The notes beneath the pieces were generated by a model. That model was given only the letters and a program-made list of their open reading frames with translations, was not told the DNA's origin and ran no database searches. Position numbers and translations under genes: made by a program. From Rhodospirillaceae bacterium (lineage in GTDB: Bacteria; Pseudomonadota; Alphaproteobacteria; MPNO01; UBA2964), in the NCBI GenBank assembly GCA_002709075.1, contig PAPV01000004.1, positions 168,787 through 232,786 of the forward strand: 64,000 nt of DNA, in the 5' to 3' direction. Shown one piece after another: positions 7,861 to 20,408 of this stretch. Position 1 is the first letter of the stretch. Each line of letters opens with the position of its first letter.

Positions 7861-8733
7861 TTAACGAAGACGTTCGATAACCTCATCAAGTTGTTCTAAC
7901 GTATCATACTCGATCGTTATATCACTCGTTTTGTTTCTAAAATTTATCTTAACCTTTAATCCAAGACTGTCACTTAGACTTTTTTCTAAAGCAATTGTAT
8001 CGAGGGATTTTTCGTTATTTTGTTTTTCTTTGTGGCTTGAGCGTTTTGGCCGTTTATCCGCAGCTAACGCTTCGGCTTGTCTTACAGATAAACCCTTGCG
8101 GATTATTTCTGTTGCCAGTTCTACCGCATTTTTATGCCCGACTAATGGTCTTGCATGCCCGGATGTTAATTTACCTTTTTCTATGAAAATTTTTACTTCC
8201 GCCGGCAGCGTCTCCAACCGCATGATGTTGCTAATGTAGGGTCGACTTTTTCCTATAACTTGAGCAAGTGTCTCCTGTGTATAGGAAAATTCCATTATAA
8301 GCCGCCTGTAACCAGAAGCCTCCTCTAAGGGATCAAGATCAGCCCGTTGGATATTTTCGACCAAAGCAGCCTCTAAGACCTCCTTGTCACTAAGATTTTT
8401 TACTAAAACCGGAACCTCATGCAAAAGAGCAATTTGCGCAGCACGCCATCTTCTCTCACCAGCGATTATTTCATAGGAATTTATTCCTTTAGTTCGGACC
8501 AGAATAGGTTGCAAAATTCCATGTTGAGAAATAGATTCGGAAAGAGACGCAATCTCACCTGGGTCAAAATGCTGCCGCGGCTGAAATTCGCCGGGAGACA
8601 GATACTCAATAGGAACAGTACTTATTTCACTAGCAGCTGGGTTAATATTACTGTTGGTCGAGATTGGATCTCCAAGAAGCGAGGACAATCCTCTACCCAA
8701 CTTCTTTGGTTTTGAATGCGCTGATTTCTTCAA
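7861..8733 (-). CDS. parB: Chromosome-partitioning protein ParB
   Basis: LGRGLSSLLGD, FQPRQHFDPGEIASLSESISQHGILQPILVR, YEIIAGERRWRAAQ, HTH and C-terminal dimer domain. Confidence 0.98.
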   Translation of the reverse strand: MKKSAHSKPKKLGRGLSSLLGDPISTNSNINPAASEISTVPIEYLSPGEFQPRQHFDPGEIASLSESISQHGILQPILVRTKGINSYEIIAGERRWRAAQIALLHEVPVLVKNLSDKEVLEAALVENIQRADLDPLEEASGYRRLIMEFSYTQETLAQVIGKSRPYISNIMRLETLPAEVKIFIEKGKLTSGHARPLVGHKNAVELATEIIRKGLSVRQAEALAADKRPKRSSHKEKQNNEKSLDTIALEKSLSDSLGLKVKINFRNKTSDITIEYDTLEQLDEVIERLR

Positions 8734-9518
8734 TCCAATTCCTCTTCTCTACGTAGTACTTCAGCTGCCAAATGAACGTAAGCTTGTGAACCCGGACAGT
8801 TAAAATCATATAATAAAACAGGCCTTCCGTGTGATGGGGCTTCCGACACTTTTACATTTCTCGGTATAACGGCCTTATAAACTGTTCGACCAAAATATTC
8901 TCGCACATCCTCTGATACAAGCGCACTGAGATTATTTCTTGAATCAAACATCGTAAGAACAATGCCCTGTAATTTTAAATTCGGATTAAATGTTTTCTTT
9001 ACTCGCTCAGCTGTTTTTACCAACTGGCTCAAGCCCTCAAGAGCTAAATACTCACACTGAAGAGGTACTAATATGCCTTGTGCAACCGTCAATGCATTAA
9101 GCGTGAGCAAACCAAGCGCTGGGGGACAATCTATTAATATGTAATCAAATTTGCATTTAGATTCTGCGAACGCTCTTTTTAAGCAATATTCGCGCCGCTT
9201 TGCACCAACCAGTTCTAATTCCGCACCCGACAAATCTGACGAAGCCGGCACTATAGAGAGATGCGGAATCTCGGTTTTCACGACCGCCGAGTGAAGGGAC
9301 TCATCACCAATCAATACTTCATAGCTACCAGCAGAAATATTTTTTCTCTCAATTCCCAACCCCGTAGAAGCATTGCCCTGCGGGTCTAAATCAAAAATTA
9401 ACACCTCACGACCTACAGCAGCCATTGCAGTAGATAAATTAATCGCCGTAGTTGTTTTGCCAACCCCACCTTTTTGATTGGCGACTGCTATAATCCGAGA
9501 ACACCTAGTTTTAGGCAT
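8730..9518 (-). CDS. parA: Chromosome-partitioning ATPase ParA/Soj
   Basis: Deviant Walker A VANQKGGVGKTTTAINLSTA; FDLDPQGNASTGLG; overlaps parB start. Confidence 0.98.
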   Translation of the reverse strand: MPKTRCSRIIAVANQKGGVGKTTTAINLSTAMAAVGREVLIFDLDPQGNASTGLGIERKNISAGSYEVLIGDESLHSAVVKTEIPHLSIVPASSDLSGAELELVGAKRREYCLKRAFAESKCKFDYILIDCPPALGLLTLNALTVAQGILVPLQCEYLALEGLSQLVKTAERVKKTFNPNLKLQGIVLTMFDSRNNLSALVSEDVREYFGRTVYKAVIPRNVKVSEAPSHGRPVLLYDFNCPGSQAYVHLAAEVLRREEELD

Positions 9519-9521
9519 ATG

Positions 9522-10193
9522 CTATTTAGCCAATTTCTTATCAAATCTGTAACGTGAGAAATTTTTTATATACACGATAATTCCTGTCTCATCGCTACGG
9601 CTTTTTATAAACGAAAAATCTATCTTCCAGCTTTTTAGCGCTTGCGTCAATTCTTCGTTTGCTCGACGTCCCTTTAAACAAAGAATTGACGGCTTATTAT
9701 CACCAGAGCAGTTACCAAAGCAATCGGCATATTCCAGTAATTTATCCAGCGACCCCAAGGCACGAACAGTAATCAAATCAGTCTTCCACGGTGATATATT
9801 TTCAATTCGACCCTGGTGAACCTTCACATGAGTTCCTGTCTGACGCGCAACTTCCCTGAGAAATTGTGTTTTTTTTTCAGATGACTCGATCAAATGAACT
9901 TTTGCTTTTGTCATGATTGCAAGAACCAACCCGGGAAATCCTGCACCGCTTCCAAAATCTGTAATAATTGGCGTTTTATTCGGAAATAGGGATATTAACT
10001 GTGCCGAATCATGAATGTGACGCCGCCAAACACTTGTTAAAGTTTTAGGACCAATTAAGTTAATAGCGCCCTGCCAACGTGTTAAAACTTCTACATATTT
10101 TTCTAGCCGATCCATTGTTTCACGTGAAACACTATAACACTTTTTAAATTCTTTCTTGTCCAAGTTAAATCCCCACCTAAATCTAACGAACAA
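9522..10193 (-). CDS. rsmG: 16S rRNA (guanine527-N7)-methyltransferase RsmG
   Basis: [47 protein letters not shown]. Confidence 0.97.
10116..10131. promoter_or_regulatory. parS: parS centromere site (ParB binding)
   Basis: TGTTTCACGTGAAACA, exact match to the canonical 16-bp parS palindrome; inside rsmG, encoding the VSRET motif. Confidence 0.95.
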
Positions 10194-12090: not shown

Positions 12091-12106
12091 TGTTTCACGT
12101 GAAACT
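12091..12106. promoter_or_regulatory. parS: parS centromere site (ParB binding)
   Basis: TGTTTCACGTGAAACT, 15/16 match to canonical parS; at the mnmE 3' end / mnmG-mnmE intergenic. Confidence 0.92.
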
Positions 12107-17563: not shown

Positions 17564-18625
17564 TTACTGCTCGCGAACAAGCTTGCACAGCGTTACAACA
17601 TTTTCAACTGGCGTGTCTTTTATAACGCCATGTCCTAAATTGAATACAAACCCTTTATTTTGATTAAGAATGCTACAAATGCGTTGAGCCTCTTTAACCA
17701 TTTTATCACCCCCCGACAAAAGAAGGACTGGATCTAAATTTCCTTGAATTGCAACTTTATCCTGTAAATTTTTTGCAGCCCACTCACAAGGTATTGTTTG
17801 ATCAATACTAAGTGCATCAATATATTTGCTTTTGGAAAATTGCGTGTATCTGGTGCCAGCTAGTCTCGGAAAAACGATTATTGGTATCTCAGGGTACATG
17901 CTTTTCACTTTTTTACATATGCGGTGAATTGGATCAAAGGAGAGATGTTTAAAGCTTCCATCCGCTAACACTCCAGCCCAACTATCAAATATTTGTACAG
18001 CATTTGCTCCTGCAGAAATTTGAGCAATCAAATGGCTAGCTAAACACCCTTCAAGTTTTTTTAAAAGAAGTTCAAGTGTTCTTGGTTCCTCCACCGCGAG
18101 TTTTCGGATTTTTAAGAAGTCTCTACTGGTACCTCCTTCAATCATATAGCTCGCTATGGTCCATGGCGCACCACAGAACCCTATAAGAGCTTTTTCTTTA
18201 CTAAGCGCAACCCGTGTTTTTTTTATTGCCTCATAAATTGGAGAAAGCCGTCCTGTTAAATTCTCAAAATCTAATTTATTAATTTCTTCTGCAGTGCGTA
18301 TTTGGGAGAGGATAGGACCCTTTTCAGGTGAAAATTTTACTTTGCATCCGGCTGCGTCGGGAACAACCAAAATATCAGAAAAAATAATTGCTGCGTCTAG
18401 ATCAAATCTCTGAATCGGCTGCATGGTTACTTCCATGGCCAAATTTGAATCATAACACAAATTTAGAAAACTACCTGATCGTGATCGTAGCTCTCTATAT
18501 TCCGGCAAATAACGACCAGCTTGTCTCATTAACCAAACGGGGACTCTGCCAACAGATTTCCCTTTCAGAGCGAGAACAAGATCGGTTTCTAAATTTTCAG
18601 TCTCAATCATATACCTGTCCGACAT
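17564..18625 (-). CDS. hemE: Uroporphyrinogen decarboxylase
   Basis: VPVWLMRQAGRYLPEYRELR; GFCGAPWTIASYMIEGG; FDSWAG. Confidence 0.98.
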   Translation of the reverse strand: MSDRYMIETENLETDLVLALKGKSVGRVPVWLMRQAGRYLPEYRELRSRSGSFLNLCYDSNLAMEVTMQPIQRFDLDAAIIFSDILVVPDAAGCKVKFSPEKGPILSQIRTAEEINKLDFENLTGRLSPIYEAIKKTRVALSKEKALIGFCGAPWTIASYMIEGGTSRDFLKIRKLAVEEPRTLELLLKKLEGCLASHLIAQISAGANAVQIFDSWAGVLADGSFKHLSFDPIHRICKKVKSMYPEIPIIVFPRLAGTRYTQFSKSKYIDALSIDQTIPCEWAAKNLQDKVAIQGNLDPVLLLSGGDKMVKEAQRICSILNQNKGFVFNLGHGVIKDTPVENVVTLCKLVREQ

Positions 18626-18946
18626 ATAATTTAACTACTATAATAATATATTAATACTTGTAGAATGTAGTAGTTCGGTTAGTAACGGGGATTAACAGAG
18701 AAAAAAACAATCAACATGAAATTTTATCGCCAAACATTTGTGTACATATTGGGGAGAAAAACAAATATTATTAAATTTCATACATTTATACATTATAACA
18801 CATTAATAAAATAATATTGAAACAAGAGGAAAAAAAGTTTTACTCATATTGAGAAAATTATACACATCTTGGTTTTCTCTAAATTAAATCAGGAACACCG
18901 GGGATAACTAAAAAGACATCTTCATTTCTCGGTAGTTGTCCACATC
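18626..18946. other. oriC: Candidate chromosomal replication origin (oriC), hemE-ppsR intergenic
   Basis: AT-rich stretch (about 18770-18825), perfect TTATNCACA match TTATACACA at 18858-18866, one-mismatch TTGTCCACA at 18936-18944; hemE-adjacent location as in Caulobacter/Rickettsia; parAB/parS nearby. Confidence 0.65.
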
Positions 18947-19816
18947 TTGCAAAGAAAGATTAACATTATGGACGGCGGATACCACATCCATTTGGTTTCG
19001 GACTCTACTGGGGAAACAACCTATAATTTGGCGCGCGCCTGTTTGGTGCAGTTCGAGAATTTACATGTGCAGACACACACACACGCTCAAATCAGGGATA
19101 AAGATAAGCTGGCGACAGTACTTTTGCATATTCGCGAAGCTGGAGATGTAGTCCTATACACTTTGGTCGACCCAGCACTTAATCGCCAGCTCGCAGCTGA
19201 ATGTGCAAAATTATCAATCCCATGTATCGATATTTTAGGTGGAGTATTATCGCATTTAGAGAAATTTTTTGGCCAAAACACGCAACGGCAACCTGGACGC
19301 CAACACATTATGGATGCAGGATATTTTGATAGAATCGAGGCGATGCATTACACAATGGAAAACGATGATGGTCAGAGATTAGACCGAATCGAAGAAGCAA
19401 ACATAGTCTTAATTGGTGTATCCAGAACCTCTAAAACCCCAACAGCTATATATCTGGCGAATCATCGTGGCCTGAAGGTTGCGAACATACCATTTGTTCC
19501 AGGGTCCGATCTTCCTATGAAAAAATTGAAAATAAATAGGACATTTGTAGCCGGCCTTACAACTTCTGCGGATAGACTTCTCAATATCAGAAAACAAAGA
19601 TTGCGGTTGATGGGGGAGAAGACTCTCACGGACTACGTAACACTTGAAAAGATAATGGATGAATTGCGGAGCGCGAAGCAGTTATGTAATCAAATGAGTT
19701 GGCCTGTTATTGATGTAACTAAAAGATCAATAGAAGAGACCGCGTCCGAAATAATTTCTTTGTATGATGAATGGATTGAGTCGACGGTGGAGTATCGGCC
19801 CGGGAGCACTCAATAA
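18947..19816 (+). CDS. ppsR: Pyruvate, phosphate dikinase / PEP synthase regulatory protein (DUF299)
   Basis: YHIHLVSDSTGETTYNLARACLVQF; LIGVSRTSKTPTAIYLANHRGLKVANIPFVP. Confidence 0.95.
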   Translation: MQRKINIMDGGYHIHLVSDSTGETTYNLARACLVQFENLHVQTHTHAQIRDKDKLATVLLHIREAGDVVLYTLVDPALNRQLAAECAKLSIPCIDILGGVLSHLEKFFGQNTQRQPGRQHIMDAGYFDRIEAMHYTMENDDGQRLDRIEEANIVLIGVSRTSKTPTAIYLANHRGLKVANIPFVPGSDLPMKKLKINRTFVAGLTTSADRLLNIRKQRLRLMGEKTLTDYVTLEKIMDELRSAKQLCNQMSWPVIDVTKRSIEETASEIISLYDEWIESTVEYRPGSTQ

Positions 19817-20408
19817 TGTTTAATCATAAAAACAAATCATTGATGCTTACGGTAACTTCCAATAAAGCAACACACGGAATTAAATGGAAGGCTGGAAGAG
19901 ATTTTCATCCGCTTCGTTAGTAACCGATGAGAAAAAATCACGGCCAAATTTATTATGACGGGGACTAGTGGAGCCTTGATAACGTCATCTAGCAAGCTGA
20001 GAAACCGGTTTCGCTTGTTTCTAATATTTGCTAACGTCAGTACTTGGTAAGGTCAAATAGCTAAATTGAGAGTGTCAGTGCTTAAAATCCGTGACAGTAA
20101 TTAAATTGCATATATGCAATTTAAAAACGTCTACGATAACTGACACTGCCCTATCAACAACGAGTGGCACATGTCAAATCTTAGAGTATACATTAACGGT
20201 GACTTAAAAGCGCCAATTATCTCAAAAATATTAATGAAAAATATTTTAACGGCGGCACAGAATAAAATCCTTCAATTCTGCGGTAGTTATCGATTTAAGA
20301 CTCTTAAGGGGCAAATGTTCGATTTAGGGAAGAACGACCAGATAGTGATTTTTGGATTTTTCCTATTACCCTTCCTGTACTACCAGAAGTTCGAAAGTTT
20401 ATAAAGCC
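19816..20408 (+). pseudogene. maf: Decayed Maf/nucleoside-triphosphate pyrophosphatase gene
   Basis: ATG overlaps ppsR stop (TAATG). Same frame reads NHKNKSLMLTVTSNKATHGIKWKAGRDFHPL (cf. Maf LILASASxRRxxLLxxAGxDF), then QAEKPVSL.. and IC*RQYLV (cf. IGADQxLV) with several stops; C-terminal-like WIFPITLPVLPEVRKFI just before aroE; length about 590 bp fits maf; ppsR-maf-aroE synteny. Confidence 0.65.
20101..20124. repeat. 24-bp perfect palindrome
   Basis: TTAAATTGCATA|TATGCAATTTAA, each half the exact reverse complement of the other; enclosed by inverted repeats AGTGTCAGT (20071-20079) / ACTGACACT (20139-20147). Confidence 0.85.

Follow-up and report, generated by a model that had tools for sequence, protein, structure and literature searches.

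A probable hemE-type chromosomal origin with a diverged unwinding module in an uncultured alphaproteobacterium

Introduction

The boundary genes of the Caulobacter crescentus origin, Cori, are hemE and CC0001, a member of COG1806/DUF299 (PMC1914354). Rickettsia prowazekii and other hemE-type origins have the same hemE–COG1806 boundary around an A/T-rich spacer of a few hundred base pairs (PMC1914354). Caulobacter and possibly Rickettsia are the only Alphaproteobacteria in whose origins CtrA sites have been seen (PMC4468827). That most bacteria have a conserved unwinding module has already been published as a general idea, and the strict rule for this module, termed BUS, asks for three or more NAN trios and, no more than 16 bp from them, a DnaA box with at most two mismatches (PMC8287927). 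In Bacillus subtilis, the BUS consists of DnaA-boxes #6/#7 and DnaA-trios.

The DNA analysed here, referred to as the window, is a stretch of 64,000 nucleotides corresponding to bases 168,787–232,786 of contig C4 (408,183 bp) in an alphaproteobacterial assembly of 2.52 Mb and 26 contigs. An earlier note on this DNA proposed a chromosomal origin between hemE and a gene named ppsR. Coordinates below are those of the window unless a contig is named.

Results

The spacer has the boundary genes of a hemE-type origin

The candidate oriC spacer (18626–18967; 187,412–187,753 of contig C4) comprises 342 bp between two divergent genes. The left flank is hemE on the minus strand (17564–18625), which encodes uroporphyrinogen decarboxylase (PF01208, E = 8.5e-113), and the right flank is PPSR on the plus strand (18968–19816), which encodes a kinase/pyrophosphorylase of COG1806/DUF299 (PF03618, E = 1.6e-90). 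Because alignments with relatives begin near residue 8 of the TTG-started frame, the PPSR start is assigned to the ATG at 18968; this corrects the spacer limits given earlier, 18626–18946, to 18626–18967. The name ppsR stands for a regulator of PEP synthase/PPDK (pyruvate dikinase) with PF03618 and not for the photosynthesis repressor PpsR. The gene order at the locus is parA, gidA, trmE, rho, hemE, spacer, PPSR, and aroE. Of 80 named relatives, 77 have the divergent hemE/PPSR pair, and in the remaining three, the locus is cut by a contig start upstream of PPSR. The spacer is indeed A/T-rich, as had been noted, with 74% A+T versus ca. 61% locally, and across the 408-kb contig no 100-bp window is less stable than its central A/T island (18763–18862).

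The locus resembles Cori in its boundary genes, A/T richness, DnaA boxes, and nearby parABS, but its boxes include a consensus R-type box and not only G- and W-boxes. It shares with the origins of R. prowazekii and other hemE-type members the boundary and the short A/T-rich spacer, and differs from them in that the lineage of the window keeps PPSR and has no adjacent maf, while its congener lost PPSR instead. Between PPSR and aroE is a 535-bp gap without a convincing gene (19817–20351), where congener G001 has maf. A tblastn search of this gap with the congener’s Maf gave no significant match, and the only Maf of the genome is encoded on another contig (C1:48702–49247). The boundary genes published for Caulobacter and Rickettsia bear out the comparison drawn in the earlier note (PMC1914354). 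The spacer is almost certainly another hemE-type alphaproteobacterial oriC, to which its boundary genes, A+T content, DnaA boxes, and skew switch (see below) all fit; it is an expected feature, since its address is the same as that of the Caulobacter origin.

The note had suggested looking for CtrA and IHF sites; in the spacer, CtrA sites are not above chance and IHF-like sites are near chance. No perfect CtrA site (TTAA-N7-TTAA) was found there, and one site with one mismatch compares with 1.6 expected; two IHF-like sites with one mismatch compare with 1.4 expected. CtrA control of the spacer was rejected on this ground, in agreement with the published statement on CtrA sites in alphaproteobacterial origins (PMC4468827).

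The parABS neighbourhood is on the hemE side. The parA gene (8730–9518, minus strand) was assigned from AAA_31/CbiA/ParA Pfam matches. A motif scan identified a perfect parS (10116–10131) and a second parS with one mismatch to the 16-mer (12091–12106). No other site in the whole assembly comes within one mismatch of the 14-bp parS core, and the two are 6.5 and 8.5 kb away from the spacer, which confirms the two nearby parS sites reported before.

DnaA boxes are conserved in position, but their number is near chance

A sequence scan recovered both plus-strand DnaA boxes of the earlier note, the perfect box TTATACACA (18858–18866) and the PPSR-proximal box TTGTCCACA with one mismatch (18936–18944), together with their common context CACATCTTG at 18863 and 18941. 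A third, reverse candidate near 18740 does exist as a weak site, but it has two mismatches, for which we rejected it, and was not found conserved. The spacer has two boxes with at most one mismatch versus 0.82 expected from dinucleotide shuffles (P = 0.19), and the same kind of shuffles gives P = 0.033 for one perfect box. Across the contig, 7 of 18 perfect boxes have a second near-match within 100 bp. Since the count at one mismatch is not above chance, box counting was rejected as proof of an origin, and the case for an origin had to rest on independent evidence, i.e. conservation and skew. The near-chance count speaks for an alternative, in which the conserved sequence is a mere divergent promoter region of hemE and PPSR and the DnaA boxes occur by chance or for transcriptional control. 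The divergence of the two genes favours it as well, for their promoters must sit in the spacer.

The boxes were then compared with those of relatives, as the note had proposed, and both the boxes and the unwinding core described below are kept in position. The sequence ATATGCACA of family relatives aligns with the box at 18858. On the PPSR side, a box with no more than one mismatch occurs in the last 95 bp of 55 out of 101 spacers, versus 3.4% of shuffles. The distance from box to PPSR start is 32 bp in the window and 34 bp in close family relatives (TTATCCCCA, plus strand). The CACATCTTG repeat was rejected as a conserved extended box: the spacer of the congener contains only TTATGCACATCTGG, and other family relatives read differently. 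The heptamer ACATCTT occurs in three direct copies within 85 bp (18864, 18916, and 18942), two of them after DnaA boxes. Such 7-mer triples within 80 bp number only 11 on the contig, and the triple in the spacer is not conserved in the family.

Strand-corrected GC skew switches at the spacer

Within the window, the cumulative GC skew is lowest at 18657, a position inside the spacer. Over the whole contig, the raw skew reaches its minimum at 119,232, stays on a plateau to ca. 190 kb, and then rises. This flat raw skew left of the origin (C4:111000–190000, ca. 80 kb; loci L031–L048) is due to blocks of plus-strand genes, and could mislead origin calls based on skew only. When gene strand entered the model of the per-kb skew as a covariate, the single step that fitted best was at 188 kb, i.e. 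at the spacer, for all positions as well as for third codon positions. By comparison, a step at 119 kb was worse by 77 (all positions) and 64 (third codon positions) units of n ln(RSS ratio). The GC-skew check put forward with the original proposal thus returned a sign switch at the spacer, and an origin at the raw minimum was rejected. In G005, the nearest complete relative, the skew has a local minimum at 2,777,743, inside hemE and less than 200 bp from the hemE start; in 20-kb samples of this chromosome, the skew is negative between 420 kb and 2.54 Mb and mostly positive beyond.

These data bear on a second alternative, namely that the origin is elsewhere on the contig, e.g. near 119 kb, where the raw skew is lowest, or close to dnaA (279.8 kb). 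The raw minimum itself points that way, as do the location of dnaA, 92 kb rightward of the spacer on this contig, and the sparse intergenic-only skew, whose minimum is at 161 kb. However, the 119-kb position is strongly disfavoured once gene strand is corrected for, the origin profile (see below) has no comparable match elsewhere in the genome, and the conserved origin gene cluster, like both parS sites, is found at hemE. We regard an origin elsewhere on the contig as very improbable.

A BUS-like module is located beside hemE

The earlier note missed a BUS-like module at the hemE end of the spacer, which combines an easily melted A/T stretch with TAG repeats (DnaA-trios) and a tandem pair of weak boxes. 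In the spacers of relatives, the module consensus reads A/T block, TTGTAGTnGTAGTTG, about three bases, CTGTGGATA, and CGGGGATTA. Read on the minus strand from the right, the consensus starts with two weak DnaA boxes in tandem, followed by a short spacer and then CTA repeats; hence, the plus-strand 3'-GAT-5' repeats run away from the boxes. Many of the repeats in relatives have TTG or TGG in place of TAG. The order and orientation of the relatives’ module equal those of the B. subtilis BUS, with tandem weak boxes, short spacer, 3'-GAT-5' repeats, and A/T block as the shared parts (PMC8287927).

The corresponding sequence of the window (18661–18694) is TAGAATGTAGTAGTTCGGTTAGTAACGGGGATTA. To its left is a probable DNA-unwinding element beside hemE (18626–18660). 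The 40-bp duplex from 18626 onward is the weakest of the spacer and is matched in weakness by only 0.007% of contig windows, and the A/T block is kept beside the trios in relatives. The adjoining degenerate DnaA-trio array, TAG AAT g TAG TAG (18661–18673, plus strand), was assigned by direct reading, alignment with the GTAGTAGTAG arrays of relatives, and profile matches, and is likewise read 3'-GAT-5' away from the boxes. The two putative weak boxes are on the minus strand. The trio-proximal one, TTACTAACC (18677–18685), is diverged from the relatives’ consensus nTATCCACA and, having three mismatches here, is assigned from its position in the alignment only. The second one, TAATCCCCG (18686–18694; plus strand CGGGGATTA), is conserved, and its GGGGA core is invariant in all 40 aligned relatives. 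Different from the BUS, the two adjacent boxes of the window have three mismatches each, and no more than two of the trios keep register; no box with two mismatches or fewer was found in that stretch, which leaves the module below the strict BUS rule. The putative trios of the window are among the poorest of the family and are identifiable by homology only.

The putative opening core aligns across much of the class

A position matrix was trained on the sites of 94 relatives with the window left out. It scores 21.1 at the spacer, which is the best place of the contig, and 15.0 at the next-best place. None of 20.4 million shuffled positions reached 21.1, the best shuffle scoring 20.8, while one complemented-sequence control gave 20.5, near the 21.1 of the true site. 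A sequence profile (R1) built from 40 relatives has its best match in the whole genome at the spacer (21.1 bits, E = 7.6e-4), and its next match has 15.8 bits. This rank of a relative-trained profile identifies the predicted module of the window as a homologue of the relatives’ BUS-like module.

Searched over 115 alphaproteobacterial genomes, R1 matches 85 at E <= 0.1. Among the best 30 matches, 27 are directly upstream of hemE and one is beside PPSR; the other two are between maf and rho (G057) and on a contig fragment (L217). By these alignments, the putative strand-opening core is alignable across much of the class. In G057, which has a 1.2-Mb genome, the core (L212; G057:C39:124016–124075) is between maf and rho in a 3-kb stretch that contains neither hemE nor PPSR. 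In G001 of the same genus (L049) and G011 of the same family (L056), the origin core is retained upstream of hemE, and PPSR is not detectable in these assemblies, which are 86% and 71% complete, respectively. The next gene beyond the core upstream of hemE in G001 is maf.

As the core is kept without PPSR, and at the maf–rho place without hemE there, the module is not merely the hemE/PPSR promoter region. Also against the promoter explanation, the skew switch occurs both at the spacer and at the orthologous place in G005, and the conserved motif is a module of trios and weak boxes instead of a -35/-10 pair. We consider a mere promoter region highly unlikely. Instead, the skew switch, the parS sites, the conserved module, and the Caulobacter-type flanking genes support the earlier placement of oriC between hemE and ppsR, neither of the two checks that the note had set out as refuting went against it, and the spacer (18626–18967) is almost certainly the chromosomal origin.

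Discussion

The location, anatomy, conservation, and strand asymmetry of this origin can be read directly from the genomes compared, and from them we infer DnaA binding, opening, and origin firing at the spacer. DnaA would bind the plus-strand boxes at 18858 and 18936 and, cooperatively, the weak boxes at 18677–18694. A DnaA filament would grow leftward from there onto the plus-strand TAG trios (18661–18673) and would open the adjoining A/T block (18626–18660), leading to helicase loading. Through the parS pair, 6.5–8.5 kb away, the freshly copied origin would be segregated by ParABS.

With the unwinding module already published as a general idea, novelty here may be confined to two points: beside hemE, the module can be aligned across the class, and it survives the loss of flanking genes. 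In the open-access literature, we found no description of the hemE-side core as an alignable motif in Alphaproteobacteria.

The middle adenine is thought to be necessary in DnaA-trios. Tentatively, and with somewhat more doubt than confidence, we suggest that an ancestral, alignable opening core upstream of hemE, consisting of an A/T block, T[A/T/G]G repeats, and tandem weak boxes ending in CGGGGATTA, may be common to Alphaproteobacteria and may outlive the loss of either flanking gene. Many of its repeats would be without the middle adenine, and in the genus of the window the core would have decayed below the published BUS rule and yet still be an origin. Whether trios without the middle adenine work is a testable question raised by this suggestion. 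With the class-wide profile, origins could be located in fragmented assemblies of Alphaproteobacteria, also where hemE or PPSR has been lost. For this uncultured alphaproteobacterium, a fixed origin allows coverage-based estimates of growth rate and correct genome numbering.
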